A stretch of DNA of 64,000 nucleotides, from the NCBI GenBank assembly GCA_019448385.1, contig JAGTXO010000042.1, positions 186,001 to 250,000 on the forward strand. Direction: 5' to 3'. This document shows positions 8,098 through 55,141 of this stretch, in pieces. Origin of the DNA: Diacronema lutheri (lineage: Eukaryota; Haptophyta; Pavlovophyceae; Pavlovales; Pavlovaceae). Made by a program: the position numbers and the translations under genes. Positions within the stretch are counted from its first letter, which is position 1. Every line of letters starts with the position of its first letter. A model generated the notes under the pieces. It saw nothing but the letters and a program-made list of their open reading frames with translations. It did no database searches and was not told where the DNA came from.

Positions 8098-8154
8098 GGC
8101 AGCCACGCAGCTAGTGCTGACCCCGCTGTCCTGACGTAAGCGCCGTTAGTAGTA

Positions 8155-18594: not shown

Positions 18595-18629
<35 letters not shown>

Positions 18630-21842: not shown

Positions 21843-22097
21843 CTCATGCAGGGTCCTGGCGGGGTCGAAGGTGCCGGCCGCCGAGTGTCGCGGCGAGTTT
21901 GGCGCGAAGCAACCGCGCTGCCGCTGCTTCACCGCCGGCATTGAGGTGTGCACGACCGTCGCGCAACGGCAGGTGCAGCCGCGCGTGCGTCCGCGCGTGG
22001 CGTCCAAAAACTCAGCGTTCGGCAGCGCAGCCGCATCCGCGGGGCACAATCCCTTGGCCCTCCACCACGCCCGCGAAGCAACCGCCGCGCTGCAGAG

Positions 22098-23589: not shown

Positions 23590-23653
23590 CACTGGAGTTT
23601 GAACGCCGACGCCGTTTCACGGCCGGTTTTGAAAGCGGTTGGGCGGTTGGGCG

Positions 23654-28312: not shown

Positions 28313-28375
28313 TGTTCCGCAGAGTGAAAGTCTAGATAGGGACCTCCCTAGCTAGATTCGTCAAGATCGGACGCC

Positions 28376-33495: not shown

Positions 33496-33529
33496 TTTCC
33501 TCTTCACCTCTTGTAAAGTTTTGTATTCT

Positions 33530-34246: not shown

Positions 34247-34279
<33 letters not shown>

Positions 34280-35220: not shown

Positions 35221-35529
35221 CGGCGCGCGGCGTGGCCTCGCGTGCCGTCACGAAGCCGCCTGCGCGCACTGCGGAGGCGGCGAGCGCGACGAGGGCGGGC
35301 GCGGACGAGGTGCTGAGCGGCGTCACGTACGCGCCCTCGCTCGCCGAGCTCGACGCCGCGGCGCTGACGATGCGCGCGGCGTACCACACCGACCGCCCCT
35401 GAGACGATGCGCGGCGCCCGCGGAGGACTGGTCCGTTGGCGCGCAAACCGTGGGCGAAAGGGCGCGAAGCCAACGGCCGTCCGCGCACGTTCAAACGCGC
35501 GCATACGGGTGGCATCCTCCCACCTTCGG

Positions 35530-35844
35530 CGCCGCTTTCTAAAAGGGTGTAGGGTGTAGGGTGTAGGATGCAAAACAAGCCCTCCCCACATTTGGGCCCG
35601 ACGTCATTCCTTCTTCGAAGCCGTGACGTTACTCACATACGAGTACCTTTACTTAGTGTAGGATGTATCTATTCTCTAGGTATTTGCATAGTGTAGGGTG
35701 TAGGATACGTACGGTTATGAAAGTCCCATAGGGGGGAGAAGGAATGACGCTGTGACGAAAGAAGGAATGACGTCGGGCCCAAATGTGGGGAGGGCTTGTT
35801 TTGCATCCTACACCCTACACCCTACACCCTTTTAGAAAGCGGCG
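35530..35844. mobile_element. 315-bp foldback / MITE-like element with 88-bp inverted arms
   Basis: The left arm 35530-35617 and right arm 35756-35844 are inverted copies, differing by about one indel. They begin CGCCGCTTTCTAAAAGGGTG and continue through several GTGTAGG units to a GACGTCATTCC block. The middle (about 140 bp) is AT-rich for this genome and holds more GTGTAGG copies. No coding capacity. I could not find a convincing target-site duplication; the flanks are CACCTTCGG and GCGCCTCGG. A non-autonomous terminal-inverted-repeat transposon is the best reading. Confidence 0.85.
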
Positions 35845-35989
35845 GCGCCTCGGAGCATGGCGGCTCGACAGCATGGCGCCTCGACAGCATGGCGTCGTCC
35901 AGCGTCACGCCGCGTCGTGGTCCTGCCGCTCCTCCGTGGCGCACGGATGGCGCTCCTCCGTGACGCAGCCGAACGACGCCGCGGCGTCA

Positions 35990-37570
35990 CGGCCCGGGCG
36001 CAGTCGCCATCCTGGACGCCACGGATGGCGAACCGGTCGACGAGATCCGGCACGAGGACGTCTGCGCCATCGCCACGCAGCTCGACTGCGTCTACACGGG
36101 GCTCACGGGCTCGATGTTTGGCACCAAGTGGAACGTGTGCGGGGTCATGCTCCCGAAGCGCGCCGAGCAGCGGCCGCAGCCCGGCTCGGACGCCTTCGCC
36201 TCGTACAGCGTGGCCGCCTGGGCCGACACGTTCGACTCCACGGGGCTGTACGTGCCCGACGAGCGCGAGCGCGCGGCGGCGCTCGCGGCGGTGGCCGGTC
36301 TGCGCACGGCGCGCGCGCCGGCCGGGCCGGGCGGGCGCGAGCTCGCGCGCGCGCAGGGCTACGATCGCGCCGAGCAGGCTGCGAGCGCGGCGGCGGCGCG
36401 CGCGGCGATGGCCGAGACCGGCCAGCAGCGCGCGCTCCACGGCGCGGTCGTCGACTCGGCGCTGCGCGGCGTGGGCGACCGGCTGCACTTTTGCGACGCG
36501 CCGGGCGGCACGGGCAAGACGTTCGTCGAGCGCGCCATCATCGCCGCCGTGCGCGCGGATGGGCACGCGGTCGTCGTGTGCGCGTCCTCGGGCGTCGCCG
36601 CCACGCTGCTGCCCGACGGCCGCACCTTCCACTCGACCTTCAAGGTGCCCGTCGGCGCCGACTCGGACGGGCAAGCCGTTCAATGGCGTGCCGCGCTCCG
36701 AGCGCGGGCGCTCCGTGGCCGCCGCGGCGAATGATCGTGGGGGACGAGGCGCCGATGCAGAAGCGGGGCCGCCTCGACTCGCTCGATCGGTGTTTGCGCG
36801 ACGTGACGGGCGTCGACGAGCGCTTCGGCGGCAAGACGTTGCTGCTCGCCGGCGACTTTTGCCAGTGCTTGCCGGTGGTGCGGCGCGGCTCGCGCGCGCA
36901 GATCGTGCGCTCCTGCCTCGAGTACTCGGCATCGTGGCAGCACGATCGGCCGTACGCCTTGGTCGAGAACTCTCGCGCCTCGAACGCGGCGCGCGACACG
37001 GGCGACGCGCTCGGCGCGGGCGAGTGGGCGAAGCTGCCGCGCAGCCTCGGCGACGGCGCCTTTCCCGCGGCGGTGCCGCCTGCGGGGGCCATGCCCGGCG
37101 CATTCCCGCTCGATCCCGTGCAGCTGCCCGAGGCGTCTCGGCCTACCCGGCGGAGCTCGTAGCCACTCGCCTCCTCTCGCTCGGCGAGGGGCTGTGCAGC
37201 GGCACGCGGCTGGTCGTGCGCGGCGTGCGCGCCGGCGGCCGGCTGCTCGAGTGCGCGCGACCCGGCGCGGCCGCCGGGCGCGACAGCACCGTGCTCATCG
37301 CGCGCATCGACCACCACTCGCCCGACGAGGGCACGTTCGCGTTTGCATGGCTGCACCGCCAGTTCCCGGTGCGGCCGGCGTAACAAGGCGCAGGGTCAAG
37401 CGCTCGGGTGCGCGGGCGTGTGGCTCGCCGAGCCGTGCTTCACGCACGGCCAGCTCTACGTGGCCGCTTCGCGCGTCGGGCACGCGTCGCGCATCCGCTT
37501 TGCGCTTGGCCCGGACCCTGTGACGCGCACCGTCGTCTTCAAAGAGGTGCTCCGCGCGGTCAGCGGTGGC
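35990..37570 (+). pseudogene. Helitron-type PIF1 helicase, frameshifted
   Basis: SF1B DNA helicase remains in at least three frame changes. Frame 1 (35990-36734) carries a helicase N-region and the Walker A motif, APGGTGKTF, at 36498-36524, then SSGVAATLL. Frame 2 (36731-37162) has the Walker B motif VGDEAPM and the GDFCQCLPVV motif. Frame 3 (to 37383) has GLCSGTRLVVRGV and FAWLHRQFPVRPA. Frame 4 has KAQGQALGCAGVWL and HGQLYVAASRVG. This motif set and order match Helitron helicases. No HUH (Rep) nuclease domain was found, so it is a truncated and broken relic. It lies 146 bp right of the foldback element and on the same strand as the Fanzor gene. Confidence 0.82.
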
Positions 37571-39270
37571 GAGGCGGCGGCGGCGGCGGCGGCGTTCGCC
37601 GCGGCCGCCGTCGCCGCCGCGCGCGAATGCGCGGCGGCGGCGCGCGGTGGCGGCGGGCGCGGCGGGCGCGGCTCGGACGGCGCGCGCGGCGCCGGCGGCG
37701 GGCGGCGCGCTGGCGGCGGGCGCGACGCCGGCGCGCGGTGCTGCCCAGCACCCGCCGGCGCGACGCCCGCCGCGCCGCTCGCGGCCGACGCGCAGCCGGC
37801 GGGTGCTCGCCAACACCGCGCGCCGCGCGACTGGCCCGCGTACCTGCGCGCCCTTCTAGGGCGCGCAGGGCGGCGCCAATGCGGCCGGCAAGCAGGGGCC
37901 TCAAGCCGGCGCGCTGCCCGACGCCGCGTGGGTCGCCGCCGCGCGCGTGCCGTCGGCGCTGCCGCCGTCCGGCGTCGCGCTCGCGCCGCTGCCGCAACCT
38001 CAGCCGCCGCCGCCGCCGCCGCCTGCCGGCAAGCAGGGCAAGCGCGCAGCGGCGGCGACGGCGGTGCGCGGCCCGGCGAGCAAGCGGTAGCGGTGCCGCC
38101 GAGCCGGGGGCGGGCTCCGTGGGCGACGCGGCTTGGCCCGCCACTCGCACCACTCGCGCCGGGCGCGCACAACGCGCCGTGGTCCGCTGCGTGGCCGAGC
38201 GAAAATGCGGTCCTGGCTGCGGGGCGGATCCGACACGCCATGCGGGAGAGGCCGTACAGCGCGTGAGCTTGGGCCCGTGATTTATTACTCATGGATTTAT
38301 TACTCATGCCATGGCGTCGCGCCACGATTACGCCCGTGGCCCCGGCCGCCAGCCTCGCGCCGCTACGCCGTGTCGTCGCGGCCGGCGCACACAGCGAACT
38401 GTGTGTCCGCGGCACATGCCCGGCTGCTCGCGAGCTGCAAGCTTGCCGAACTGCTCGCGCTAAAATGGCGCGTTGCGGGCGTGCCCGCGCACCGCGCGTA
38501 TGTTCCGCGCGTTCCAGGCGCGCCGCGCCGCGCGCCGAAGCGGCGCGCGGCGCACGTGCGGCCGCGAGCCGAAGAGGGGCCGGCGCGACCGGCCGCGAGG
38601 CAGACGCAGACGCTCGGCGTGCCGGTCGACGCGTCGTCCAAATCCGCGTCGGGCGGATGCGCGCCTAGGCCGGCGCTGCGTGCAATCGGCGCGGGTCGCC
38701 GCCGCATGACGAAGCATGCTTCCATCCGGTGCTCGGCCACGCGCTCGGGCGTAACGTTCGCGCCTGTTCGGCCGAGGCGCACTCGCCGTCCCCTCGCGCC
38801 GGCAATGCGCGTGCGTGCCAGCACGCCGGCAGCGGAGGATGCCACGGCAGCGGCGAGCGGGTCCCCGCCGGTGTGCCGCTCGGCGCCCCGTCACGCGCAA
38901 CGCGCGCGCCGCCCGCTGAACGCGCACAATTGCCTGGGCAAGATCGTCCCGCGCTCACGCCGCCGTCGCATCGTTCCATGCATGGCGCCCGGCTCGTCCG
39001 TACCGCTTTCGGGCAGTGCCGCGACGCCCTTTTTCAAAGGCGGGTGCCGCGCTGATTCGTCATCGGCCACCATCCATCTGGCCCTCTAAAGCCGGTTTGC
39101 GCGTGGGCGCCCGTCCGGTGCGAGAAGCGGCTCGCGTCCTCGCGCGGGGCGCCTCCGCGCCAGGCGCCCGGCGCGCGCTCGTCTTGCCGCGCCACCACGC
39201 TGATCTGCGCCCAACCCTCGCTCGCCTATTCCCCCGTCGTTTCTGCTGCGTAGCCCGCAACAGCGCGCGC
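37571..39270. other. Low-information region between helicase relic and giant gene
   Basis: GC-rich sequence with many long but composition-driven frames. 37,570-38,280 is Ala/Gly/Arg-rich in every frame and may be the decayed tail of the helicase gene. At 38282-38306 the sequence TTATTACTCATG occurs twice, 12 bp apart. Nothing else is convincing; the promoter and possible upstream exons of the giant gene must lie in or near the right part. Confidence 0.4.
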
Positions 39271-42200
39271 ATGACGCGTGCACGGCGCAGCGCCTGGAGC
39301 AACTTCCGAGTCGTCGGCCGGCAGCCTGTGGGGGGCGCGTTCATCGGCCCGATGTGGCCGGTGAGAGTGCCCGACGTGCCGCGTGGTGAGCGCCTGCACG
39401 GCTCGCCGGGTTCGGCGCGTTCCCAGTCGGCCTCTCTCCGACCCGCCGTAAACCTTGCGTGCGCACCCCGCACACCCGGCGCTGCGCGGCGCGGCGCAGG
39501 CGTGAAAAACGAGGGCAACGCGTGCTACGTGAACGCCCTCGCGCAATCGCTCGTCGCCTTGAACGTGCTCCGTCCGATGCCCCGCTCCGCTTCGCGCCGT
39601 GCGGGAAGAGTCGAGAAGGCGCTTTTTCGGGACTTTGGCACGCTGCTCGAGGACACCGAGGCGCCGGCACAGCTGTGTCTTGTGTCCGTCGTCGACGTCA
39701 TCTTGGGCCGTGGCACGCGAGGGACGCAGCAGGACGCTGCTGAGTTCTTCCAGATGCTACTCGGCCGAGTGCCCGGGCTCGCTGCTGCCTTCGAAGACGA
39801 CAGACGCGTAGTGCTCGAGCCGATCGCTGTGGCCTCGAGCGAGCGCGGTGAGGGCATCGCCATCCTCGTCAGCATTGGCGGCGATGCGGCGCGCACGCTC
39901 GCACACGCTCTGGGGGGCGTCGCTGGGCCGCCGCAGGGTGGCAGCCCGGACGCGTGCCGCTCGGACGTGCTCATGCCAGCCAGCATTGCCGTCGAGGTGC
40001 CGCGCACGACGCGCGGCAATGGCTCGCAGTGCAAGAACAAGCACGCGTTCGTGTGCGCGCCGCGGCTGCTACTCGGCGGGCGCGACTACCTCCTCGTCGC
40101 CGCCGTCGTGCACTTGGGCGAGGAGTCGACGAGCGGGCACCTTGTCGCCATCGTGCTCCGCAACGGGGCTTGGTTTCTGTGCGACGACGACAACGTGCGG
40201 CGGCGCGCACGGCCGCTTGGCGCCGCGACCGGCGGTTGATCGCAGCCGCAGCCGCCCCGTCCTCCCGCGCGGCACGCGCGCGTGGCCTGAAAGCTCGCGC
40301 CGCGCGCCTGCCGCACGCACGCGCGTTGCCCGCGCAGATGCACAACTTGTCTCAGTCCGACGCGCTGGCGTGGGCAAGTGGTGCGAGCATGCTCTTCTAC
40401 AGCCGGCTCGACGCGGAACCGTTGGACCCGGCGCTGGGCTCAGCGTCACCGCCGTCGGCCGCATCGCCTGCGTGGCCGAGCTCGGCGCCCGACGCGCCGA
40501 CCCTGTCGGCAGCCTGGTCGCGGGTGCGGCAGATGGCAGCGGTGCCAACAGATGCGACGATCGGCATCGCGGAGACGGCTGCAGACACCTCTGCGGCGGC
40601 GATCGGCCCAGCTGCGTGCGAGGCCCGCCAAGTTGTCTCCGCGACGCGCGCATTGCCAATGGCGGTGAGTGCCTCGCACGCGCACGCCGTCCGCTGTCCA
40701 CAGCGTGGCGCCCGGCGCTTGCGTTCGCGCCAGGTAAAGTTTGCGCGTATAGCGTGCAGCACCCTCACGCATCCCCTACGCCTCCCGCCCGCCCGACCTC
40801 TTGCCCGCCGGCCGCGCGCAGGACCAGCGCACGCCAATTGTTGGGCGCGGCCAAATCTGGGCATGCGCAAATTTTGAGCCGGCAGCGGAGGGCGGGGATG
40901 CGCAGCACAACTGGCGCAAGCGCACGTGGTGCCCGCAGCACGAGCAGCGCGAGCAGCGCGAGCAGCGCGAGCAGCGCGAGCAGCGCGAGCAGCGCGAGCA
41001 GCGCGAGCAGCGCGAGCAGCGCGTGCAGCGCGTGCAGCGCGAGCAGCGCGAGCAGCGCGAGCAGCCCTGGCAGCCAGCGCGGCCAGGCCTCGGCGCGGGC
41101 GCTGGCGTTCGGCCCGCTGCTCTGCCGCCGAGCCATCCGCGCGCCAGCATGCGCGCGAGCAACCGCTTCGAGCCGCTCTTGTTGGCCGAGGCGGACGTGC
41201 CCGCCACCGAGCCCGCCGCCGCCCAGCCCGCCGCCCAGCCCGCCGCCGAGCCCGCCGCCAAGCCAGCCGCTGCCAAGCCCACCGCCGAGCCCGCCGCCCA
41301 GTCCACGGCCCAGCCTCCCACCGTGCCTGACGCCAAGCCAGCCGACCAGCCCGCCGTCAAATGCGCTGCCGCCAAGCGCGCTGACGACCGCATTGCTGCC
41401 GCTGAGGTAGGCGCCGTCGCCGCCACGCTTGCCGCCGCCACCGAGCCTGGCGGCGTTGCCGAGCTCGCCGCCGCCGCCGACGAGGGCTGCAGGGCGCGTG
41501 CCGACGCGCTCGCCAAGCGCGAGACCCGCCGCGCGCTCCACCGCGAGCAGCTTTTTCGCGAGGACAAGCGCGCGGCCGGCCGCCTGATCGAGCAGTGCGC
41601 GCTGGGCTCTGCGGACGATGCAGCGCGCGCGCGCGCCCTGCTCGAGCGCGTCAAGGCGCGTGGCCACGCGCTGCCTCCGCACCTGCTGCGGTCGCTGCGC
41701 GACCTCGCGTCGCCGCGGCTCGCGCTCGCCGCTGAGGCGGCGGGCGTGCTCGCCGCGTCCGAGATGGGCGAGGCGGACGCACCTGCGGAGGCGCGCGCGC
41801 TACTCATGCACGCCGAGGCCGTGGGCGCCCACCTGCCCGCGCACACAGAGCTCGCGCTGCGCCGCGCCTGCATCCCCACCGCCGAGCAGGCGGAGCTGCT
41901 CGCGACTGCGCGCGAGCTGCTCGCGCCGCGCGACCCCGAAGGCTCGGTGGCTCCGGCGGGCGCGCGTGCCGAGTGCGACGGCGCCGCGCTCGGCACTCGC
42001 GCGCGCGAGCTCCTCTCGCGACTCGACGAGGCGCACCTCGACGTGCAGCCCTGCATTGCGCGGCAACTGCGCCGGCTCGCCGCCACCGAGCCAGACGCAA
42101 GTTCGAGCGCTGCGCTCGCCGCCACGCCCGGCACCGCCGGTCGCGCGGCCGCCGAGCCGCGGCGCGCGTGGCGCCCGCGCGGGTGGCGTCTCGCGGTAGG

Positions 42201-44116
42201 CGCAAAGGGTGCGCGCGCGCGCGCGCGCGCGCCGCGGCTGCTCCGCTCGACACGGCGCCGCCCGCGGCGGCCGGCGCCGTCCCGCCGCTCGAGCCGCAGC
42301 CCGAGCGCCGTGCAGCCGACGCCGCGGCCGCCGCAGCGGCGCCGGCGGCCGGCGACGACGGCGTGGCACGCGCGCTCGCAGCCGCAGCGCGCGGCGACGG
42401 CCTCGACGGCGTCGATGGCGCCGACGACCTCGTTTGCGCGCCGTGCGACCGAGGCTGCGCGCACGCACGCGACGGCGGCTGCTGCGAGCCTGCCGCGCGC
42501 AGCTCGCCCGACCAGTGCCCGCGCGCACCGCCGCGGCGCGCACGGCGGGCGGCAAAGCGCGCGCGCGACCGGCTGCGGAGATCAATCGACAGGTCAGAGC
42601 GGGCTGTCGGCCGCCGATTGCGTGGCGGCGACGCGCGCCGCGAGCGCAAGCGCAGGTGCGCGACGGGCGGCCAGCACGCACCGCAGCCGCTCCGCCGCGC
42701 GAGTCGCAGCCCGCCGTCGCGCACCGATCGGCCCTCGGCCGAGCATGCCGCCGAGCCTGCCGCCGAGCCCGACAGCCCCCACCGCCGCCCGTGTGCCGGT
42801 GCCGCCGTCGCCGTCGCCACTGTCCGGTGCGCCGTCGGCATCTTCGCGAGTGTCGTCGCCGCCTCTGCCGTCCGGGCCGCCATTGCTCCGGCCGCTCGCC
42901 CGTCTGCAGCCACCGCCTTTTGGCTCGTCGCCGTGTGCTCGGCCGCCGCATGGGCCGCCTTCGCCTCCGCCGCCCGCCCGACCGCCGCCTTGGCCGCGCC
43001 GCAGCCTGCCACGCAATCGTCGGCCGCCGAGCCCACCGCCGCCGCGCCAGCCCCCGCCCAGCCCGCCGCTGCCGAGCCAGCCGCTGCCCAGCCCGCCGCG
43101 GCCGAGCCCGCCGTGGCGCAGCGCGACGTCCAGTCCGCCGCCCCGGCGCTGCTCGCGTGGGCGGGCGACGCGGCTGCGCTCCGGCTGGCCGATGCCGCCG
43201 CGCGCGCCGGCATCCCGCAGGCAGAGGTGGACTGCATTGCGGGCGGCGACATGCTCGCCTCCACTGTGGACGCTTGCTGCGAGGTCGTGCTGCGCGTGCA
43301 CGGGCAGGCCGGCGAAGGGCGCGTCTGCCACGTACCGCTTGCCGCTCAGCCCGCGGTGTTCCAGGACGGCGCCGAGCGCGCCGCGCTGCTGCACCGCCTG
43401 CACAGCGAGGCGACGACGCAGGCGGTCATCGGCATGTGGAGCCCGCCGGGCGGGCGCGGCGGTGCGGGCAGTGACGATGGCACGCCGCCCGCCTCCGGCC
43501 ATTTCACCGCGTTGCGCCTCGTGCGCGTCGCGCGCGCGGGCGAGCATCGCTACGACGCGGTGCTTGTCGACACGCTCGCGTCGCCGAGCAGGCAGGCGCT
43601 CAAGCGTGCCAGGTCGATAACCGCCACGCTGCACGCGGCGGGCCTCGACGTCTTGCCCGTGCGCCGCGCGCGGCTGCTCGACAACGCGGCGCAGCGTGGC
43701 GCGACGTGCGGCCTCGCCGTGGTGGGCGCGCTCAACGACGCCGCGCTCGCTGCGGCGGGCGGTGCATCCGCGCCGCGCACGTTCAGCGTGGCGGACATGT
43801 ACGCTGTTGGCGAGCACCTCCGCGTCGCGTTGACTGGCGCGGTCAGCGGGCGTGCGCCGAGCGGCGCCTGCGCCGGGGCGGGCGCGGTGCGCGGCGGGGG
43901 CAGCCGCGATCGCGCTGCCGAAGCGCCGCGGCAGACGCGCGGCGCCAAGGCCGCCGCAGACGCCGCCGCCGCTGCCGCCGTTCCGCCGCCGCCGCCACCT
44001 CCGCCGCCCGCGCTGGGCGCCGCCGCCGCCACCACCACCGCCGCTGCCGCTGCTGCCGCCGCCGTGGCCGCGCCGCCACCGCCGCCACCGCCGCCGCGTG
44101 CCGGCGACGAGGGCGA

Positions 44117-44164
<48 letters not shown>

Positions 44165-47100
44165 GCGCACGTTCTTGAAGCTCGCGCCCAGGGCGCGCGC
44201 GGCCGCCTCGGCGCGCGAGGCGTTGCGCGCCGCGTGTGCGCGCGCGGACGCGGCGGCGTCGTCACACGCGTCGGCGCCGCACGCGCCCGCCGATGCGCGC
44301 CGCCGGCGGCGCGCGGGCGCAGGCGAGCTGGCGCTCGCGGCTGCGCGCGCGCTCGCCTCGACGGAGCACGGCGATTTGACGGACGACGCGCTCGAGGCCG
44401 CCGTCGAGCAGGAGCTGGGCGACGAGCGCGGCCAACTGCTGCTGTGCACGCGGGGCGCAGCGGCGCAAAGGCCCGCGCTTTGCCGGCTCCTGAAGCACGC
44501 GTGCGCGTCGGCGCGCGCGGCGAAGCGCGCGCAATTCACGGTGTTCGTCGTGCGCGCGGCCACGCGCGGCGAGCGGGGGGGCGCCGCCGCGAGGCGCGTG
44601 GACTCGGTGGTCGAGCTGTCGTGCGCGCTGCACGAGAAGGCGGGCGCGCTCGGCGGCCTCCAGAGCGTCTGTGTGCGTGGCTTTGCCCTCGAGCGCCGCC
44701 GGACACTCGACGCTGGCGCCGAGGCCGGCGCGTCCGCCATCGGCCAGGACGAGCAGGTCGAGGCAGAGGCGGGCGAGGCGTGCGTCGCCGGCGTGACGAT
44801 GGCCAAGCAGCTGCGTCAGTTTGCCGAGCAAGCTGCCCGCGACGACGTGCTCTTCCGCGTCGCCGTGTCCGAGGCCGACGCCCACGCCCGGCTGGCGCGC
44901 GTTGCGGGTGACGATGTCGGCGCGTACAGCGTCGTGCTCGCAGTCGCCGGGCTCGTCTGGCTGGCCAAGGCCGACGAGGTTGCGCCGGCGGCCGCCCAGT
45001 CCGCCGCCGCGCCGCCCGCCGCCCCGCCTGCTGCCGCCACGTCCGCCGACGCCGAGCGCGACGCCTCGCCTTCCGACCGCCTGCGCGCGCTGACGCTCGC
45101 CGTGCGAGTCGCGCTCGCGCGCGGCGTGCTGCGCCACCTCCTCGCCGACGCGTCGCCGGGCGCGTCCGCGACCGCTGGCGGTAGTTGCGCGACGCCCGTC
45201 GACGCGGCCGCGTCCGACGCCGCGCCGCCCGCCACGGGCGTCGTGACGAGTGGCGTTGCGGCGGGCGCTGTGGCGGCCGCACCGGCTGCTGCGGGCGGTG
45301 CGATGGCGGGTGCATCGCCCATCACGCGGCCGGCGAAGCGCGCGCGGCGCACGCTCACCGCCGCTCCAGCCGCCTCGGCCGTTGCGGCCGCTGGAGGCGC
45401 ACGCGCGGGCGCACGCGGCGCGGCCGGCGCGCCTCGCGCGCGCGCCGCGCGCGCGCCGGCCGAGTACGTCTGGCTTGCCATCGCGCGCCGGATGCTGGCG
45501 GCGCGACACGCGGCGGCCGCGGGCGGCGACTTTGTCGCGTCGTGCGTCGCCGCGATGCAGGCCGAGTACGGCGACGGCTGTGCCGTCGTCGTCGGCGACG
45601 CGCCTGGTGACGCCTTGGTCGAGGCTGCGGCGGCGGCGCTGCTCGAGGGCAAGCACGCGGCGGTGAGCCTCGGCTGCGTCGACCGGCCGGCGGTGCTCGT
45701 CGTGCAGCGCGCCGTGGACGCGCCCACGTCGCGCGTGCACGGGTGGTGCGCGCACGCGGCGGGCGCCGCCGAGTTTGACGAGGGCGCCGCGCACGGCGTG
45801 TTCAACGCGATCGTCGAGCGCGCGTGGGCGCTGCGTCCGGACCCGGCTGACGGCAGCCCGCCGCCCACGCGCACGTGGGAGGTCGAGCGCATCGCTGGCG
45901 ACGCGCCCGACCAGGCGGGCGTGGCCGCGCTGCGCGTGCTCTACGCGCTCGTCGCGGCGCACGGCCGCTACCGCTCGGCCGCCGCGCTCTTTGGCGCGCT
46001 CGCGCAGCTGCACGCGCCCGACGCCGCCGGCGCGCGCGCGGAGGTCGTCGCGGCGGCGTGCGCGGTGCCGCACGGCGCGCGGCCGGGCGCCGCGCCGGCG
46101 GCCGCGCGGGACGACGCGAGGGAGCGCGCATGGGAGGGCGCTCAGATCGCCGCGCTCGCCGTCGGCGCGGACGCTGCGCGCAGGCGTGTCGCGCCCGTGC
46201 GCGCGCTCGTCGACGCGCTCGGCACGCCACCGACCTCGGCGATCACGGGCGGGCCGGCGGTCCGGCTCGCGGGCGCGGGCGACGGCGGCCACGGTGCACG
46301 GTGGGTGGGCGGGCAGGCGGCGACGCCCGCCGAGCAGCTGCCGAGGGAGCTGCTGCGCGCCTACCACGAGGCGGTGCTGTGCGTCACGCCCGGCAGCCTC
46401 CAGCTCGGCCCGGCGGCGCTCGACGCGGTCACGCGGCCGCGCGAAAACGACACGCTGGAAGGCCTCCTCGCGCGCGTCAGCTGGCAGTGCGGCGCGAGGG
46501 CGAGCACGTGCGCCATGCTCGCCACGTTTTCCGAGCAGGCGGGCACCGGCTCGCGCGTCGCGCTCAAGGCCCTCCGCACGAGCTCCGACCTGGCCGGGCT
46601 GACGGCGGCTGCGGTCGGGCAGCAGGCGCCGCAGACGCCGCCGCCGCCGCTGCTCGTGATGCTCGGCCGCTGCCCCAGCCCGCTCGTCGGCGGCGGCCTC
46701 TTCCCGCCCGACCGCGCGACGGGCGAGCCGGCGGTGCACGCGGCGACGTCCGAGCTCGCCGTCGAGCTGCTGCGCGACGCGCGCGCGCTGGCCGGCACGG
46801 ACGGGCGGCTCGTCGTGCTGTGCCTCGAGGCGTCCAACCCGCTCTGGTTCTGCCCCAAGGTGCGCGAGCTCGAGCTGCCGCGGACGCGGTCGGACGGCGT
46901 GCGCGCGTCCGGCTGCACCTGCCCTGCGACGTGCAGCGATGCGCGCGGCGCGGCGGGTGGCGCTGCCCGCGGCGCATCGACGCGGCCGGCGGCGCGCGCG
47001 ATCAACAAGGCGGTGCTCGACCACTTCGTCGCGCTTTTCGGCCGCGAGGGCTTCGCGACCTTTGAGTTTGCGGGCGGCGGCGAGGCGAGCTGGCTGTGCG

Positions 47101-50100
47101 ACAGCGCGGCCGGCACGACGACCGTCGCGGCGTGCGCGTCGCTCCCGCCGCGCATGGGCGATGGGCAGCTGGCCATCCGGCGGCACACGCTCGGCACGGG
47201 CGCCGACGCGCCGGCGCACGCCGTCGTCTCGCTCCGCGTCGCGCACGTGAGCCACGCCATCCGCCGCGCGGCGGACGACGGCGGCGCGCGCGCCGAGCGG
47301 ATGGCGCGCGCCGCGCGCGCGTTTTGCGATGTGGCGGCCGCGCTGCGCGTCGACGCGATCCTGGCGGAGGTGCCCGAGGACCGCCCGACGGGCACGCCCT
47401 TCCTTGGCGGGCTGCTCGAGTTTTGGAACAAACGCCACGGGAGCTCGACGGCGCCAGCCACGCTCGCGCTCGGAGACGTGCGCGAGGTGGCCAAGCGGAC
47501 GGCCGACGCAGCGGCCGGCCGAGCGGACGAGGTCCCTGCGGCTGGCCGTCCGCAGGTCGCGGCGCGCGCGTGCGCTGGCGCGATTGGCGGCGGCGCGGGC
47601 GCGGCGGGCGCCTCGGACGCTGCGCCCCGTGCACTGGCGGGCGCGTCGGGTGCGCGCACGGACGGCGGCCCTGCCGACGCACCGCGCCAGCTGGAGAGCC
47701 GCTACGGCGAGGCGAGCAAGCTCGACCTACCCCAAGATTCCACTACGGGCTGCGTCCTCGACGCTCGCGAGGCCCAGGACCGCGCGCGCGTGCCTGCTGC
47801 GCCCGACGGCACAGCGCTGCGCCGCGTGCTCGACGCCGTCGGCGCGGGCGCGCCCGCGCAGCGCAGCCCGCGCTGGCACGACGAGCGATGGGAGGAGGTC
47901 ACGGGCAGCAAGGTTGGCGACGTCGTGAACGACAACGCCGGCGTCGCGCACGAGACGCTCACCGACGAGTACGTGCACCGGCGGCGGCGCGAGGTGCGGA
48001 CCAAGGCGACGACCGCGGGCATCCTCGGCGAGGCCGTCGCGCTGCGCAAGCTGGCGGCCGCGTACGGCATCACCGTCGTGTGCAACCTGCCGATGGTGCG
48101 TGCGGACCCGCACGACAAGAGCGCGCCGTTCGCCTTCTCGCCGGACGGGCTCGCCATCCTCCCCGAAGACAACGAGCAGGTCCTCGTCGAGGTGAAGACG
48201 CTCACCAAGGCGGACGCCAAGGCGCACGAGGACGGGCCGCCGCAGCCGCACCGCGATCAGCTGCAGCTCGGCATGCACGTCCTCGGCGTGCGCAAAGCGC
48301 TCTACGTGCAGTACCTCAGGCACGAGGACCGGATCGTCGTGCACGTCGTGACGCGCGGCGTCGGCTGGCTTGCATTCGCGCAGCCGAGGGTGCAGGCCTT
48401 CTGGGCGCGCGTCGTCGAGCGGCGCGCGCGGCTCGAGCGCGCGCGCGCCGACCACCCGGCTGCGAGCCGGCGGCACCGGCGGCAGCAGACGCCGGCCGGG
48501 CCGCCGCTCGTGCTCGCGCTGGACGGGCGCATCCCCGCCGCGCGCGCCGCCGCGCTGCACGCCGTCGCGCACGGCACCGCGAGCGCGGCGGCGGTGGCGG
48601 CGACGGCGGCGACGGGCGACGCGACGGCGTTGCAAGACGCGATCGCGGCGCTGCGCGCGCCCGTCGGCAATGCGGCGATCGACAGCGCAGCGCGTGCGGA
48701 GCGCGCGGCCGTCGAGCGGGCGATCGCGTACCTCGGGCAGCCGGCAGGCGACGCCGCCGCCCGCGGCACGGCCGAGGCGGCCGAGGAGGAGAGGACGGTC
48801 GACGCCGACATCTGCGCGTTGCTGCACCAGCTCGGCGCGAGCGTGGCGCACGTGCACGTCGAGGACGCGGATTGCGTCACGCGTGAGCACTGGGGCGGGG
48901 CGGTGCTCGCTGCAGCGGGCGACCCGTCGAGCGCCCCCGCCATTTCGAGCGTCATCGTCGCGCACATCGTGCGGCTCGCCGGCTTTGGCGTCGAGCTCCC
49001 GCAGTCGATTCGCGTCGCCCCCAGCACGGCCGACTGGCACGAGGGCTGGCTCGACGTGCAGTGCGTGCTGCTGCGCACGCGCCGGCGCGGGCGGCGCGAC
49101 GACGACTTTGTGGCCGTCGTCAGGCGCGGTGGGCGCTGGTTTGCGTGCGAGCCCGGCCGCGCGCGGCGGCTGCAGTGGCGGTCGGTCCTGCGCCGCGCGC
49201 GCGGCGGCGTCGACGGGACCGGCGAGGAGGCGTTCGCGGTCGTCTACGTGCGGCGCGGCGACGCGGCCGGCGACGCGGCTGGCGACGCGCAGGCCGAACG
49301 GGCGCGCGGCGGGCGCGCGCGCAGGCGCACGCGCGGCGGCACGCGCAAGCGCAAGCGCGGCGCCTCCGCCGGGCTCGAGGCGGCCGCGCCCGCCGGCGCG
49401 CCGGCGGGCGCTGCTCACCGCCCGCCCGCCAGGCGTGCCACGGTCGCCGCGCGCACCACGCGCTCTGTGACCGACGCGCGGCACTCGGCGCCTGCCGCCA
49501 CGGTTGCACCTGTCTTCGACTGGCGCGCCGGCCGCCCGCCCCCTGCCGCCGCCGCCGCCGCCAAGCGCGGCCAGGCGCTCGAGCCGGGGCAGTTCGCGCG
49601 GCCGCGTGGGCGCGCGCCATGGGGCAAGGTCTGGGACAGAGTCTCGGGTGCGTGGGCGGACAAGCCGACTGGTGCTGCCGTCGCCGCCGCGCCGCCGCCG
49701 CTGCCGCCCGCCGCCGCGCCGCCGCCCGCCGCCGCGCCGCCGCCCACCGCCGCGCCGCCGCCCGCCGCCGCGCCGCCGCCCGCCGTCGCGCCGCCGCCCG
49801 CCGCCGCGCCGCCGCCGCCGCCGCCACCGGCGGCGCTCGGCCGCCGGCAGCACGTCGGCGCGGGCGGCAGCGCGGCGGGCCGGCGGCTCGCGGCCATCGC
49901 ACGGCGGCAGCGCGGCGTGCGCGCGCCGCCGCCCGCCGCGCGCTTCCTCGCCACGCTGCCGCCACCGCCACGCGACGGCCTCGCGCGCACGAGCAAGCAG
50001 GCGCGCGCGAGGCGCAACGCGGACGGACGGCCGGCGCACGCGCGCGCGGCCAACGCGCGCGCCTTCTACCGCGGCGTGGAGCTCGGCGTGCACGCGACGC

Positions 50101-53100
50101 GCGCCATCGTCGACGCGCGCCACGCCGACCTGCCGCAGGCCGTCTTCGTGGCGGAGGCGCGGGCGATCGTCGCGCGCTCCGCCGGCGGCGGCGCGCTGCT
50201 CGCGCCGGACGACGTGCGCGACCTGTGCGACGCGCAGACGGACGCCGATCGCGCTGCGATCTGGGCGTCGGTGGGCGCGCACGAGGCGACGCGCATCTTC
50301 GCGCTCGTCACGCGCAACGCGAGCTTGGCGGGCGCGGCGCTGCTCGTGCTGCACACGCCGGCGGGCGCGCCGGCGCGCGCGCTCGGGCTCGTGGCGACGC
50401 GCTCGCGCGCGCCGTCGACGGGCGCGCCGCGCGACGCGCACAGGGCGCTGGTGCAGCGGTTGGACGTGCTGATGGACGCGATCGCCGCGGCGCGAGGCGC
50501 GTCGCCGCTCGAGCTCGAGCTCGCGCTCGCGCCCGAGCCGCAGAGCGCGTGCAACGCGCGTGCGGCCGCGCTGCTCTGCCTGCAGGCCGTCGCGGACGCG
50601 AGCGGCCGTCCCGCCGCTGAGGACGCGCTGGCCGCGCTCGACGACGCGCGCGGCATCGACCGGCACTGCCACGCCGTCCGGCAGCAGATCGAGGCGAAGC
50701 TCGCGTGGCGGCGCGCCGACGGCGCCGTCGGCGTTGACGGCGCCGACGGCGCGCCCGCGCTCGCGCCTGCCGCCGCACCGCCGGCGTGCGCGCCGGCGCA
50801 CGCTGCCGGCGAGGCGGCGGTCGACCAGGCGATCGTCACGCGGGTGCGCGACGCGCTGCGCGCGTGGGCGACGACTGGCACCGCGCCCAGCGCGGCGGTG
50901 CTCGACGACGCCTGCGCCGCGTACACGGCCCGCGCACGCGCGCGCAAGGACGCGCGCACGGCGCTGGGCCCGACGCGCGCGGCCGAGCTGCTCGCCGCGG
51001 CCGCGCGCGGCGGAGCCGACGGGGCGGATGCCGCGCGCGCGCTGCTCGGCGGCACGCCGCGCCTGCTCGTCGTGCTCCTCTGCGTGCCCGTCGCCGCGCC
51101 GTCCGGCGAGCCGCCGCGCCCGGTCGGGCTGCTCGTCGCCGACCGGCCGACGGACGACTCGCGCCCGGCCGCGCTCGTGCGCTACGACTTTGCGCCGCTC
51201 GACGCGGACGTGGCCGTCGCGGTCGGCGCGCATGCCGTCGCGCTGGCCAGTGCGATCTGGCCGCTGCTCGCGGCCGAGGGGGAGCCGCGGCCATCGCCCG
51301 TCGTGCGCTCGCAGCCGCGCGGCGGCGACGATGGCGCGCGTGCGCTCGCAACGTTCGCGTGCCTCGACGCGCTGATGACCGCCAGCGTCGGCGCGCACGG
51401 CCTCGCGGGCGGCGCGGGCATGCTGCCCGCGCTGGTCGCGCGAGGCGCCGCGGCCGCCCAGCGCGAGCGGCAGCTGCGCGCGGCCGCCGAGAGGCTGGGC
51501 GGCACGGTCGCTGGGTGGCCGGACACGGGCGCGAGCGCGGCGGGCGCGAGCGTCGACGAGGAGGCGCGCACGTACGAGGTCGAGGCGGTCGTCGACGAGC
51601 GCCGCAAGGCGGGCAAGAAGGTGACGTTCCAGTTCCGGATCAGGTGGCGGGGCTACGACGAGAGCGCCGACACGTGGGAGCCTGAGGCCAACGTGAGCAG
51701 CGACCTCGTCGCCCAGTTCCGCAAGACGCGCGACGAGCAGAAGCGGCGCGCGGGCGTATCGGGCAGCGGCAGCGGCGGCGCGGGCGCGGCGTCGGCATTG
51801 GCGTCGGCGCCGCTTCGCGCGCACGGCGAGTCGGGCGCCGCGGGCAAGCGCGCCGCGGCGGGTGCCGCCGCGAGCGCGCGCGACGCCGCGGGCGCGCGCG
51901 CGCCGAGCGTTCCCCGCGCGCGCGGCGTCGAGCGCGCGCGCGTGGACGAGCCCGCTGCGCCGAGCGCGCGCGCCGCCGGCGGCGCGACGGCGCGCACGCG
52001 CGGCAGCGTGCTCCCGGGCTTCGTGGTCAAGCGCTCGACGCTCAACGCGGGGCCGCAGGCGGTGACGGCGCAGCCCGGTGCGCGGAAGGAGCTGCGGCGC
52101 ATCGCGGCGGCCGTGCACAGGCTCACGACACAGGCGTACCGCGTCATCAACAAGGTGGTGCGCGACGAGGCTGCGGTGGCGAGCGCGCAGGCCGTCGGCG
52201 CGGCGTCGGGCGGCCCGTCGACCAGCGTGCACACGTCGACCACGATGGACAAGGGAACCGTCCGTGCGATCTTCTCGGCCATCGGCTGGCACAAGGACGA
52301 GAGCACGTACGGTGCAGCGCCCCGAGGCAAGCCCGCCGAGCAAGCCGCCGCGCAGACCAAGGCGGCGACGGCGCGCGCCGTCGGCGAGATGGCCGAGGGC
52401 GTCCAGCCCGTCTGCGCGGTGGGCCTCACGGAGATCCTCGAGGCGGAGGCGACGCAGGTGTCCACCGCGTGCCTGATGCATCCATCGCGCGTCGTGAACG
52501 GGCTGCTCCGCGACGTCGTCCGCGCGGCAGTCGAGCGCGACGAGGCGCTCGTCGCGCTGCCCGAGATGCAGCGAAACGCGCGCGTGCGCGAGCTGTGCGA
52601 GCGGCTGCTGCGCGGCGACGTGGAGGGCGCGCGCGTCGGCTGCCCCGCCGCGCTCGACCGCCACCTGCCCGACATGGTCCTCCACAAGATCGACTACAAG
52701 TGCACGCCCACGAAAAGGTGGAACTACGACCGGCACACGACGCGCTACTTCCTCGTGCAGATCCGCACCCTGCAGCACGTGGCCGAGGGGCAGGCGCTGC
52801 TCTGCCGGCTCGCGCACATCCACACGCAGCTGACCGGACGGCCGCCGCGGTACAATGTGGCGCCGCTGCGCACGCACAATGTGCGCGCGAGGCGTGGCTG
52901 CCGCTGCCGCCGCCGAGTGCCCAAGCGCGCGCGCGCCGCCGCCGTGCGCGCCGCCCCGCGGCCAGGTTGGTCACGCGCCCGCGCGCTCGCGCGCCGCGCG
53001 CTGCGCGCAGGTGCCGCGCAACGTGCGCCTCGCCGCGAGCGCCATCTGGGTGACGCTTTCGGATGACGAGCGCAAGGAGCTGCGCGCGCGGCTCAAGGCG

Positions 53101-54735
53101 CTGGACCTGCGCGACCACGATGGCGAGCCGATCAAGTGGACAGGCACAAACGGCAACACCCCGCCGATGTCGGACGTGCGCGTCAGGTACGCGGTCTTTG
53201 CGACGCGCTTCGACATCTCCAACCGCGTCTTCGACTACGCCGGGCGCGAGCGGCCGCCGGCCGATCTGCCGTGGCACGCGCGGCGCTCGTGGGTTGGCCT
53301 CGCGCCGCTGCCGCGCGTGCCGCTCCCGGGCCGGCAGCCCGTCAAGTCGGTGGTGACAGATGGCGTCGCCGTGCACGCCGTCGGGACCGTCCTCGTGCCG
53401 AAGGCGCAGGCGCCGGCCGGCGGCTCGGGCGTCCTGCACCGCTGGCGCCGGCCGGACGGGCGCATCGCCGTCGCGCTCGGCTCCGAGCTGCGGCGGGCGA
53501 TCGACGTCGAGGCGGCGGTCGTCGTCGCGGCCGACCCGAACATGGGCAACATCACCACCTACTCTGCGCACGTCGGGCGGGCGGCCGTCTGGCGGCAGTT
53601 CACGCAGCGCGCGCGCGCGCGCGCCGCGGGCTTTGCGCGCGAGACGGCCAAGACCAACGCGGCGCGGCGGCGCGTGCGCACCGACGGGCGCGGCGAGGAG
53701 TTCAGCGTGGAGGCGGACGAGGCGCGGCTTGGCGAGGCGCACAGCGCCAAGGTGCTCGACGCGGGCAAATACATCGCCTTCCACCGCGAGAGCGCGCGGG
53801 TGCGCGAGCGCGCCGCCGAGCACGTGTACGACGCGCCGGCGCGCCGGAAGGAGCGCTGGCGGCGCGACAGCGGCGGGCGGTCCAACGCGGCGCGCGTCGC
53901 CGAGGCGCTCATCGCGGCGCACTGTGTCGACGGCGTGACGCGCGACCGGCTGCTCGTGTGCGTGGGCAAGTGGCTGCGCGACCACAAGGGCGCGCAGCCC
54001 AAGGGCGCGCCGCCCGCCTTCCAGGTGGGGCTGCTGCGCGAGCTGCGGCGGCGCGGCGTCGCGGCCGTCTTCGTGCCCGAGCCGTACACGTCGATGCACT
54101 GCTCGATGCCGCGGCTCGCCAAGGGCGGCAGGCTGCAGCGCTGCGGCGCGGAGCTCGCGCAGAACCCGCGCCTGCCCGTGGCAAAGGGCGGCACGCGCAC
54201 GGTGCACGCGCTCGTCATCTGCCCGGCGTGCAACGGCGGCAAGAAGCCCGTGCACCGCGACTACAACGCCGCGCGCAACATCTTCTACGACGTGCACGAC
54301 ATGGCGGCGCACGCGGCCGGGCGCGACACCACGTCGACGCCTGAGCGCTTTGCCCTCGTGCTCGCCTGGTGGGCGCGCGGCGAGGTGTGGGAGCGTGAGG
54401 AGCGCATGGTGCACGGCGAGGGCGACGACTGCGACGACGAGTGCGACGGCGACGACGAGGGCGACGACGAGGGCGACGACGACGACGACGACAATGGCAG
54501 CGGCGACGGCGGCGGCGGCGAGGGCGACGGCGACGGCGACGGCGACGGAGGCGGCGGCGGCGACGACGACGATGACGGCGGGGGAGGCGGCGGCGGCGAC
54601 GGCGGTGGCGACGACGGCGGCGGGCGCGGCGGCGGTGGCGGCGGCGGCTCTCGCGCCCGCACCCCCGCCCGCGGAGCTGCCAGCGCCAGTGCCGGCGGCG
54701 GCAGCGCGCGCGGGCCGAAGCGCGGCCGGCGTTGA
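39271..54735 (+). CDS. Giant multidomain protein: USP-like / Ulp1-like / YqaJ / chromodomain / Fanzor
   Basis: Proposed CDS join(39271..40194, 40338..40733, 40906..42208, 42382..52880, 53011..54735), about 4,948 aa, total length divisible by three. Junctions use donors GTGCGG, GTAAAG, GTGCGC and GTGCGC with AG acceptors and matching phase. Order: USP-like protease, (EQR)n repeat, three helical repeats, Ulp1-like protease signature with degenerate relatives, YqaJ exonuclease, chromodomain, Fanzor nuclease, acidic Gly/Asp tail. Exon 4 alone is 10.5 kb of one open frame. The start is uncertain (ATG 39271; an acceptor-like site at 39499 may mean more upstream exons), the 42,209-42,381 intron is the weakest join, and two or more separate genes remain possible. 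Confidence 0.5.
39500..40430 (+). other. Ubiquitin-specific-protease-like (C19) domain
   Basis: The Cys box GVKNEGNACYVNALAQSL, the QQDAAEFFQMLL helix and the His box HLGEESTSGHLVAIVL, followed by CDDDN, are those of USP deubiquitinases, with catalytic Cys, His and Asp/Asn apparently intact. A 143-bp intron (40195-40337) then restores the last USP strand, ASMLFYSRLD. At about 290 residues it is a small USP and lacks an obvious zinc-binding fingers insertion. By family it would remove ubiquitin; viral and transposon proteins sometimes carry such domains. Confidence 0.75.
40938..41067. repeat. 9-bp coding repeat (GCGCGAGCA)n
   Basis: About 14 units of GCGCGAGCA with two altered units (GTGCAGCGC) in the middle. 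In the proposed frame it encodes repeated Glu-Gln-Arg, a charged helical spacer between the USP-like domain and the rest of the protein. In other frames it would give Ala-Ala-Arg or Ala-Ser-Ser. Confidence 0.85.
41500..42170 (+). other. Three alpha-helical repeats in the giant protein
   Basis: Three units of about 40-60 residues share a pattern: ARALLERVKARGHALPPHLL, ARALLMHAEAVGAHLPAH and ARELLSRLDEAHLDVQPC, each followed by a leucine/arginine helix (LRSLRDLA, LALRRACI, RQLRRLAA). They look like paired antiparallel helices of a solenoid (HEAT- or PPR-like), but I cannot assign a family. Seen directly; function unknown. Confidence 0.55.
43140..43850 (+). other. Ulp1/adenain-like cysteine protease signature
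   Basis: The order His (SGHFTALRL, codon 43500), Asp (YDAVLVDTL, codon 43569), Gln (NAAQRG, codon 43691) and Cys (ATCGLAVVGAL, codon 43706) matches the clan CE arrangement (H, D, Q, C), with Q-x4-C-G spacing. Clan CE includes Ulp1/SENP and the adenoviral-type proteases found in several large DNA transposons. Assignment is by motif only. A poly-Pro/poly-Ala linker (about 43,960-44,165) follows. Confidence 0.55.
47850..48370 (+). other. YqaJ / lambda-type exonuclease domain
   Basis: PD-(D/E)xK nuclease features occur in the right order: an entry motif (RSPRWHDERWEEVTGSKVGD), GILGEAVALRKLA with the first conserved Glu, FSPDGLA with the catalytic Asp, VLVEVKTL as the E-x-K core, and DQLQLGMHVLG, the glutamine-rich helix typical of YqaJ. 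By family it is a 5'-3' double-strand DNA exonuclease used with recombination proteins in phages, viruses and some transposons. All catalytic residues appear present. Confidence 0.82.
51564..51725 (+). other. Chromodomain
   Basis: About 52 residues starting ARTYEVEAVVDERRK, with the aromatic cage residues at Tyr (TYEVE), Trp (IRWRGYDES) and Trp/Tyr-equivalent (DTWEPEANV). The WRGYDESADTWEPE core is a textbook chromodomain match. Chromodomains bind methylated histone H3 tails; in chromovirus integrases they steer insertion into heterochromatin. It sits about 350 residues before the first Fanzor catalytic Asp's exon and in the same open frame. Confidence 0.88.
52060..54735 (+). other. Fanzor (eukaryotic TnpB-like) nuclease domain, RuvC D/E/D intact
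   Basis: An N-terminal helical part (KELRRIAAAVHRLTTQAYRV) leads through an intron (52881-53010, GTGCGC...GCAG) that joins VAPLRTHN to VPRNVRLAASAIWVTLSDDE. RuvC-I Asp is in AADPNMGN (codon 53533), RuvC-II Glu in PEPYTSMHCS (54079), and RuvC-III Asp in HRDYNAARNIF (54259). The zinc-ribbon cysteines are in HCS, RCG and ICPAC. This is the Fanzor1-type layout. Fanzors are RNA-guided DNA endonucleases; the guide RNA is normally encoded beside the gene, at the element's 3' end. The C-terminus ends in a long Asp/Gly-rich acidic tail and a basic tip (GPKRGRR), possibly a nuclear signal. Confidence 0.88.
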
Positions 54736-55141
54736 CGCACGGCCGAGCCGCGCAGCGGTCGACGCTTTGCGGGCTCTGCCCAGGTCGCGCGCGGCTGGCG
54801 ACGCGTGCCGCGCGCGGCACGACCGTGCACGCCGCCACCCGTGGCCGAGCGCGCCGCACCAGCCGGCCCGCTCCAACCGCCGTGCGGATCACGGACGCTC
54901 GCTACGGCTCGTCGGCGCGCGTCACCTGCGCCGGCGGCCACGGCGCCGTCTGCTCCGGCCTCGTCGCGAGCAGCCCGACCGCTGCTCGCCGCCCGCACGC
55001 CGCCGCAGCAACGCTGCGCGTCGTGCTCCCCCGCTCGCCAAACGCGAAGAGCTCCCTCACAAGGACGTCCTTCCGAACGGCCCGCGCTGCACTCGGGGCG
55101 CGATCGTGCCCCTGATCGGATTTGGCTTGACCATCTATACG
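54736..55141. other. 3' flank of the Fanzor gene
   Basis: About 400 bp with no convincing ORF. By analogy with other Fanzor loci this is where a guide RNA and the right end of the element would lie. I see GC-rich, potentially folding sequence but cannot define an RNA, a terminal repeat or a Helitron-style 3' hairpin by eye. Confidence 0.35.

Follow-up and report, generated by a model that had tools for sequence, protein, structure and literature searches.

A high-copy giant transposon of Diacronema lutheri with a predicted exonuclease, chromodomain and Fanzor protein

We analysed a 64,000-nucleotide stretch of the genome of the haptophyte Diacronema lutheri (GenBank assembly GCA_019448385.1, contig JAGTXO010000042.1, positions 186,001 to 250,000 of the forward strand), hereafter called the window. 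Positions 33536-55140 of the window were found to be one 21.6-kb copy of a high-copy D. lutheri transposon, with its ends set by comparison between copies. An earlier note, made from the letters of the sequence, had read this locus as possibly one large gene joining a ubiquitin-specific protease (USP), a Ulp1-like protease, a YqaJ exonuclease, a chromodomain and a Fanzor nuclease, and had overlooked that it is a copy of a multicopy transposon. As the locus is a transposon copy, the encoded proteins are element enzymes rather than a host chromatin protein. The features of this copy, with strand and the evidence for each, are as follows.

33529..33535, plus strand: left junction TATATAC, putatively target-derived and resembling a target-adjacent motif (TAM) (13 of 13 junctions; left-end pattern matches)
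33536..55140, plus strand: giant transposon copy, short form (comparison with other copies; terminus matches; size classes of 59 pairs)
33536..35905, no strand assigned: 5' terminal region common to the short and long forms (99.5% identical)
36000..37560, plus strand: PIF1-like helicase remnant, motif I and motif II parts in different frames (PF05970; long-form comparison)
39271..40239, plus strand: ubiquitin-specific protease of 322 residues, probably a separate gene (PF00443; USP46/USP12 matches in PDB; ATG at 39271, TGA at 40237-40239)
41149..42208, plus strand: probably the giant protein's first coding exon here, start putative (codon-position signal, codon score, ATG at 41149)
42382..52880, plus strand: giant-protein exon of 10.5 kb (open frame, codon-position signal, splice joint, Markov test)
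43152..43889, plus strand: candidate Ulp1/C48-like segment (H...D...Q...C order)
47850..48425, plus strand: lambda-exonuclease/YqaJ/RecE-like domain (PHROG 434, TIGR03033, PF09588; SPDG, EVK and QLQ motifs)
51573..51725, plus strand: chromodomain (PF00385)
51900..52880, plus strand: Fanzor N-terminal half, limits approximate (aligns with the Fanzor L002 upstream of the splice joint)
52881..53010, plus strand: intron of 130 bases, GT..AG (indel pattern, codon signal, L002 alignment)
53011..54735, plus strand: Fanzor C-terminal half with an acidic, glycine-rich tail (PF07282 at 2e-6; homologues P0004-P0006; motif positions)
54736..55140, plus strand: non-coding 3' end between the Fanzor stop and the right end, candidate omega-RNA region

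The copies were counted in the whole genome of 43.49 Mb (103 contigs). The right terminus, searched as a 21-base pattern with at most 2 mismatches, gave 236 matches (125 + 111), and the left terminus, searched as a 36-base pattern with at most 3 mismatches, gave 201 (105 + 96). Reversed-pattern controls for both termini gave 0 matches. A 33-base left-end pattern starting with TATATAC had 210 matches at up to 2 mismatches, 98 of them exact, and 0 in its control. A genome search for the TNB domain of Fanzor gave 148 matches, mostly of equal score, among the best 150 of 306 candidates scored, and the window's own match at 54043-54282 was one of them. We then paired 100 of the 236 right ends with 78 of the 100 listed left ends (out of 201) on contigs C1-C40, and obtained 59 paired copies, with lengths that are approximate (distance between the patterns plus 80 bases). 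The commonest class, a long form of 31.0 kb, held 28 of the 59 pairs (30.99-31.11 kb), and the window's class, the short form, held 11 (21.46-21.62 kb). Seven further pairs were of 29.1-29.4 kb, five of 26.0-26.5 kb and eight fell elsewhere. Forty-one of the 100 right ends were without a partner, which is an upper bound on the 5'-truncated copies there, the list of left ends being incomplete.

The 59 paired copies add up to 1.64 Mb, or 3.8% of the genome. Scaled by 236/100, the element would by extrapolation occupy about 3.9 Mb, roughly 9% of the genome. Excerpts of the genome paper give 22.9% repeats, with long terminal repeat elements at 32.7% and long interspersed elements at 3.8% of the masked bases (PMC8379373), and the giant element may make up much of the unclassified repeat fraction of D. 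lutheri. Five copies were 97.6-98.4% identical to the window over about 12 kb, and the copy on C14 was 99.3% identical over 21.6 kb; such identities between copies (97.6-99.3%) are as expected of young insertions. Contigs C1, C6, C12, C13, C14, C43 and others break off exactly at the right end of the element or a few bases from it. A telomeric location was considered as the reason and rejected, as these ends are without telomere repeats and fit assembly breaks at a long repeat. The assembly thus seems to be interrupted by the giant repeat, and the copy number may be underestimated.

The element has one main open frame, which encodes the giant protein. The stop-free plus-strand frame at 41736-53066 has 3,776 codons, a length reached in 0 of 300 order-2 Markov simulations (median of the longest plus-strand frame 1,148 codons, maximum 2,567). 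A purely chance open frame was rejected on these simulations and on the codon-position signal: GC content by codon position favoured one plus-strand frame in 17 of 17 windows of 600 bases spanning 42600-52799, and beyond these, starting at 52800, it favoured the Fanzor frame. Eight copies, the window and seven fetched ones chosen from the TNB list, were compared. The frame was open in all seven that cover it, at 3,776, 4,190, 4,513, 4,504, 4,507, 4,768 and 3,668 codons; the eighth, on C13, is 5'-truncated and lies outside this count. In a 31,038-base copy of the long form (C9:1127563 onward, read from four adjacent stretches) the matching frame has 4,513 codons at 15413-28951 and is preceded by a frame of 1,345 codons at 11716-15750 with its first ATG at 11734. 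The codon-position signal of this copy follows one frame at 11.4-15.6 kb, another at 15.6-28.8 kb except for 18601-19200, and the Fanzor frame up to 30.6 kb. From about ATG 41149 the giant protein of the window is predicted at 4,427 residues, and that of the 31-kb form, which has a putative intron near 15.5 kb, is estimated at about 6,200. Homologues of residues 500-3500 of the giant protein were not found at E <= 0.001 among 2,072 candidates scored. From 11734 on, the long C9 copy has an N-terminal extension of the giant protein that was not seen in the short form; it includes a Ulp1-like H...D...Q...C order and an unassigned stretch that looks nuclease-like by eye.

Excision of 52881-53010 links the 10.5-kb exon to the RuvC/zinc-finger half of the Fanzor, and the intron is well supported by several lines of sequence comparison. 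In seven copies all indels in 43129-55099 net to multiples of three, where two are close pairs taken together (5+1 and 29+4); the single exception, a 2-base indel at 52925, is inside the intron. The codon-position signal switches frame at the intron. The single-frame, unspliced Fanzor L002 can be aligned with the spliced product both before and after the joint, and the homologues P0004-P0006 of the RuvC half (39-45% identity) start at the joint with similar sequence. Another protein, P0003 (99%), appears to be predicted from the same sequence with a GTG start and is not transcript evidence.

The Fanzor C-terminal half has the sequences VVAADPN, PEPYTSMHC, CPAC and HRDYNAARN in the order of Fanzor1. 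They hold an Asp in VVAADPN and a Glu in PEPYTS, which we take to be residues of the RuvC motifs, a C4 finger and a final RD. The match to PF07282, the Cas12f1-like TNB family, had an E value of 2e-6 (28.3 bits against a cut-off of 26.3), and the bacterial TnpB model NF040570 matched weakly (13.7 bits against a cut-off of 100). The motif order fits the TnpB/Fanzor pattern in the published excerpt (PMC3627910). A profile of four sequences matched none of the solved Fanzor chains, and gave a weak Cas12f1 match (E 0.088) and two unrelated ones. A second Fanzor family (L002, L004 and other high-scoring TNB places) was observed in the genome, with several similar copies and some frames of 1,500-1,800 codons. 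Its C-terminal part, compared for L002 and L004, is about 30% identical to the window Fanzor; the two can be aligned over the RuvC core and across the splice joint, whereas the reading frame of this family is continuous at the joint, where the giant element has an intron.

Within the 10.5-kb exon, the exonuclease domain matched PHROG 434 (RecE-like) at E 7.6e-16 and the lambda-exonuclease model TIGR03033 at 6.3e-6, the latter with 26.4 bits, below its cut-off of 68. Against YqaJ PF09588 the whole protein gave an E value of 0.014 and a piece of 267 residues one of 2.8e-4, the latter at 21.6 bits just under the cut-off of 22. Together with these domain matches, the SPDG and EVK motifs provide the D...ExK active site of the lambda-exonuclease/YqaJ family. 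No meaningful PDB match was obtained for the segment. The chromodomain PF00385 was found at E 4.7e-12 (46.1 bits against a cut-off of 25.1) and at 4.2e-13 in a piece. Single-sequence structure models reached pLDDT values of 47 and 36, too poor for a fold search; the value of 47 belongs to the Ulp1-like segment, which had no family match in the libraries searched and no match in PDB. In a motif scan its H...D...Q...C order occurs twice in the long form.

At the 5' side of the giant frame lies the USP. It has the Cys, QQD and His boxes, also a DDDN box, and matches UCH PF00443 at E 7.3e-15 and USP46/USP12 in PDB. Its stop codon follows directly after the His and Asp boxes. By a codon score for which the giant exon was the training set, there is little coding signal between 40200 and 40900, with two 150-base bins slightly over the threshold (0.12 and 0.16). 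The long form likewise has about 3.3 kb with little coding signal between the USP and the next coding region: in 8450-11899, 4 of 23 bins were over the threshold with a maximum of 0.16, as compared to mostly 0.3-0.9 in confirmed coding bins. A one-base indel was found at 40676, inside the exon proposed at 40338-40733. Within the USP segment the two forms differ by in-frame indels only (6 and 3 bases), with no third-position excess. Fusion of the USP to the giant frame was therefore rejected as the best model on its own start and stop and on the weak intervening signal, though a path without stop exists, and the USP is most likely a separate gene, which is simpler than a fusion.

These results bear on the gene model of the earlier note in different ways. 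The 10.5-kb open frame carrying YqaJ, chromodomain and the N-terminal Fanzor half stands at 42382-52880. The five-exon model (39271-40194, 40338-40733, 40906-42208, 42382-52880 and 53011-54735) does translate without an internal stop, to 4,948 residues, its four introns all have GT..AG ends, and no in-frame stop interrupts the giant frame in any of the seven copies covering it. Hidden Markov model searches of the segments agreed with the domains named for UCH (7.3e-15), Chromo (4.7e-12) and TNB (2e-6), and more weakly for YqaJ in Pfam. The proposal of a single fusion protein is kept for the exonuclease, the chromodomain and the Fanzor, on the open frames, the codon signal and the intron, and is doubtful at the USP end, which has its own ATG and stop with little coding signal between; the Ulp1-like protease, which has the motif order, no family match and a low-confidence model, is a candidate.

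An alternative is that the USP, the exonuclease/chromodomain and the Fanzor are separate neighbouring genes, with the look of a fusion produced by rare stops at about 80% GC. Long spurious frames are indeed common here (one of 1,747 codons lies on the opposite strand), the USP gene does look separate, and two homologues of the RuvC half have a Met at the joint. Against this, the codon-position signal starts at 42600 and runs unbroken past the chromodomain, that same exon holds the N-terminal half of the Fanzor, and the frame is open in all seven copies read that cover it. We regard separate genes as quite unlikely, and the exonuclease, chromodomain and Fanzor1-type nuclease as supported, on sequence grounds, as one reading unit.

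The insertion sites were read at 13 left junctions (10 pairs, the window, C14 and C9a), and in all 13 TATATA stood before GGCGCGG. The next base after TATATA was C in 5, G in 7 and T in 1, and both C and G occurred in short-class as well as long-class copies. Beside the junction, a tested stretch of 201 bases showed no difference among the 40 best copies (of 269 candidates, 40 were scored; there were also three partial matches). Since the base after TATATA varies while these adjoining bases stay identical, it looks target-derived. The insertion L067/L068 interrupts a fatty-acid-hydroxylase gene. Three joins were tried, with TATATAG fully kept, its last base dropped, or all of it dropped, and the gene frame was restored only by keeping the whole TATATAG on the left, a test that is blind to retention differing by multiples of three bases. 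The restored product passes the cut-off of PF04116 (32.2 versus 31 bits).

In eight of the nine complete pairs with a right flank, just 5-7-base words were common to both flanks; a tenth pair meets a contig end. These pairs were picked from full matches at both ends, so that variant ends are under-represented. Among eight short copies fetched, six had their left boundary inside the stretch, at differing places. The C13 copy is 5'-truncated at window position 51110 and has kept its 3' end, with no duplication seen by eye. The element is thus found immediately 3' of TATATA, as a rule with no target duplication, and has 5'-truncated copies, which resembles the pattern of Helitron2 transposons (insertion 3' of a fixed motif, complete copies without duplication, 5' truncation). 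Excerpts on the Fanzor1-bearing Helitron2 elements CRe-1/2/3 of Chlamydomonas describe insertion after TTTT, 5' truncation, no duplication in 5'-complete copies and duplications of about 7-19 bases in the others (Bao and Jurka 2013, PMC3627910).

The resemblance to that insertion pattern raises the possibility of a Helitron2-like rolling-circle transposon moved by a RepHel in cis or in trans, in which the Fanzor polyprotein would be retention or homing cargo. A PIF1 helicase is present in the giant element, with its C-terminal part in the window matching PF05970 at 2.7e-23, and the left end as DNA folds somewhat better than shuffles (z -1.80; 13 of 200 shuffles as good). The genome also holds one Helitron Rep locus. 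This was the only genome match of PF14214 (C63:35738-36019), although a very diverged Rep could be missed by the profile, and a Rep at one place is not common to roughly 200 copies. No HUH Rep was found in the frames scanned, and PF14214 is not a shared part of the element. In addition, the PIF1 is divided over two frames, and the right end, although it has a GC palindrome about 29-46 bases from its terminus, gave a DNA fold that was not better than those of shuffles (z 0.46). Inspection by eye, with no program search, showed no inverted repeat between the element ends. We consider this explanation possible and rather doubtful; a Helitron Rep acting in trans is the leading rival for the initiation of copying. 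The C63 Rep could provide a rolling-circle enzyme in trans.

The PIF1 region differs between the forms. The long copy has its two PIF1 parts in separate frames; in the window the motif II part is alone in its frame, and some 335 bases that the long form has, and that overlap the 2B domain, are absent. Among the best 150 of 414 candidates scored in the genome, 148 of the 150 PIF1 matches start at profile position 69 or later, and most share score and frame length with the long copy, though they were not each checked against the element list. The split could be a dead helicase, an intron or a frameshift site. No homologues of the PIF1 frame were found among 8,000 scored. Domain scans of the long form gave nothing over the cut-off beyond PIF1 and Pif1_2B, with UCH below it. 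The short and long forms are 99.5% identical in the first 2.37 kb and 98.4% in the last 12.0 kb, and in the middle 90-95.5% identical or unrelated. Because the short form has multiplied and the forms are most alike there, the 5' 2.4 kb and the 3' 12 kb would be the best candidates for the cis needs of mobility.

Based on these results we favour, with moderate confidence, a model in which the giant-transposon protein combines Fanzor cutting beside TATATA, resection by the exonuclease, targeting by the chromodomain and one-ended copying from the 3' end. The Fanzor would be guided by an RNA ending at the 3' terminus of the element, and would cut beside TATATA, the motif serving as its TAM. A TAM has this role in TnpB and Fanzor systems. 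The exonuclease would then resect the cut ends, the chromodomain would steer the giant protein to chosen chromatin, and a one-ended route, by replication or by recombination, would copy the element in, beginning at its 3' end. Complete copying would give insertion 3' of TATATA without target duplication, and incomplete copying would give 5'-truncated copies.

Several observations speak against this model. The frames scanned held no recognisable Rep, DDE transposase, tyrosine recombinase or reverse transcriptase; for reverse transcriptase these were the three plus-strand frames of the first 17.5 kb or so of the long form and the giant and Fanzor frames, the other downstream frames and most of the minus strand being left out. 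With no mobility enzyme recognised there, the mobility step is left unexplained. The candidate omega-RNA has no structural support, the RNA fold of 54850-55143 having z = -0.64, and the PIF1 frame split looks family-wide. TATATA could be element-terminal rather than target-derived. The right end is inexact in some copies, as C9a finishes at CTA and C36 about 12 bases short. One of the nine complete pairs has a target duplication of 13 bases, and the truncated copy L076 has an imperfect one of about 41 bases; in the other truncated short copies none was seen by eye. At the splice joint, two of the three homologues P0004-P0006 have Met at the first aligned codon after the intron, which could mark a separate protein start in these two. 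The codon-usage score, for which later sequence of the 10.5-kb exon served as training set, is weak around 42450-43050, so that the first 0.7 kb of this exon (42382-52880) is weakly supported by it, and in a few bins the opposite strand scores highest. Variable sites fall at codon positions 1/2/3 as 39/60/38 (44129-52128, seven copies), a spread without third-position excess, and so no purifying selection is visible between copies; several of the in-frame indels fall in repeats with a period divisible by three.

An endogenous giant-virus or polinton-type viral element was also considered. YqaJ is mentioned in excerpts of papers on giant and algal viruses, and an excerpt of PMC3627910 reports Fanzors from large DNA viruses. 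On the other hand, no capsid, polymerase or packaging family was over the cut-off in the frames scanned, where the sole virus-type match was Phage_cement_2 (E 0.091, below the cut-off), and no relative of the Fanzor half was found in viral contigs. The defined termini, size classes and 5'-truncated copies point to transposition, and we hold a viral origin to be highly improbable.

Outside the element, frames in the window matched an aldo/keto reductase (5891-8038; 7e-54), a RING-type finger (17312-20326; 1.6e-8) and the TORTIFOLIA1 N-terminal domain (23633-28309; 7.6e-43). Minisatellite arrays were found at 17513-17737 (28 bases), 19053-19372 (102 (17)) and 32461-32777 (18), with units that are alike (92-98% matches). 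A dispersed repeat motif at 8121-8146, CCCCGCTGTCCTGACGTAAGCGCCGT, had 244 genome matches at up to 3 mismatches, with 0 in the control. Several of its copies adjoin ends of the giant element; it looked like the end of another repeat and not like an empty site. A search for RNA families and tRNAs found none in the window.

Transposons bearing a Fanzor are already known. Excerpts report that some Fanzors co-occur with Helitrons (PMC10432273) and that Fanzor1-associated elements include hAT, Mariner, Crypton and Helitron (PMC10711439), and an excerpt of PMC6338049 mentions Fanzor solely as a transposon-borne protein. As far as the excerpt on CRe-1/2/3 goes, these share with the giant element an algal transposon setting for a Fanzor1-type nuclease that has the RD and zinc-finger motif, a short T- or TA-rich motif with insertion on its 3' side and no duplication in complete copies, 5' truncation, and duplications in some truncated copies. 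In contrast, the giant element is 21-31 kb long with no Rep recognised, its target is TATATA and not TTTT, and its Fanzor is the C-terminal end of a giant exonuclease-chromodomain protein. ISL2EU (PHIS superfamily) is likewise a eukaryotic DNA transposon encoding a YqaJ exonuclease, but in the excerpt YqaJ is a separate reading frame beside a DDE/THAP transposase, whereas in the giant element it is fused to the Fanzor and no DDE was recognised (PMC4482050).

The combination of a Fanzor with a RecE-like exonuclease and a chromodomain was not found described in the open-licence literature, in line with the earlier note, which had not seen its fusion described. As far as searched, it is the joining of the Fanzor to an exonuclease and a chromodomain that appears to be new.

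IS200/IS605 and IS607 elements with TnpB have a RuvC/zinc-finger nuclease near the right end and insert by a short motif without duplication. The giant element resembles them in both respects, but it is eukaryotic, its nuclease is spliced and no TnpA was recognised; its giant protein is about ten times the typical length of TnpB.

Fanzors are eukaryotic RNA-guided nucleases with an unsettled biological job. It is conceivable, though unlikely, that the Fanzor is itself the mobility enzyme of a new class of eukaryotic mobile elements without a conventional transposase. One giant protein would then reach chromatin by its chromodomain, make an RNA-guided cut at TATATA-flanked sites, resect with its own RecE-like exonuclease and capture a one-ended copy of the element through break-driven replication. 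With about 200 highly similar copies, junctions that can be read and a sharp insertion motif, D. lutheri makes it directly testable what a Fanzor does in transposition. If active, the giant protein would be a natural guided nuclease coupled to resection and chromatin targeting.

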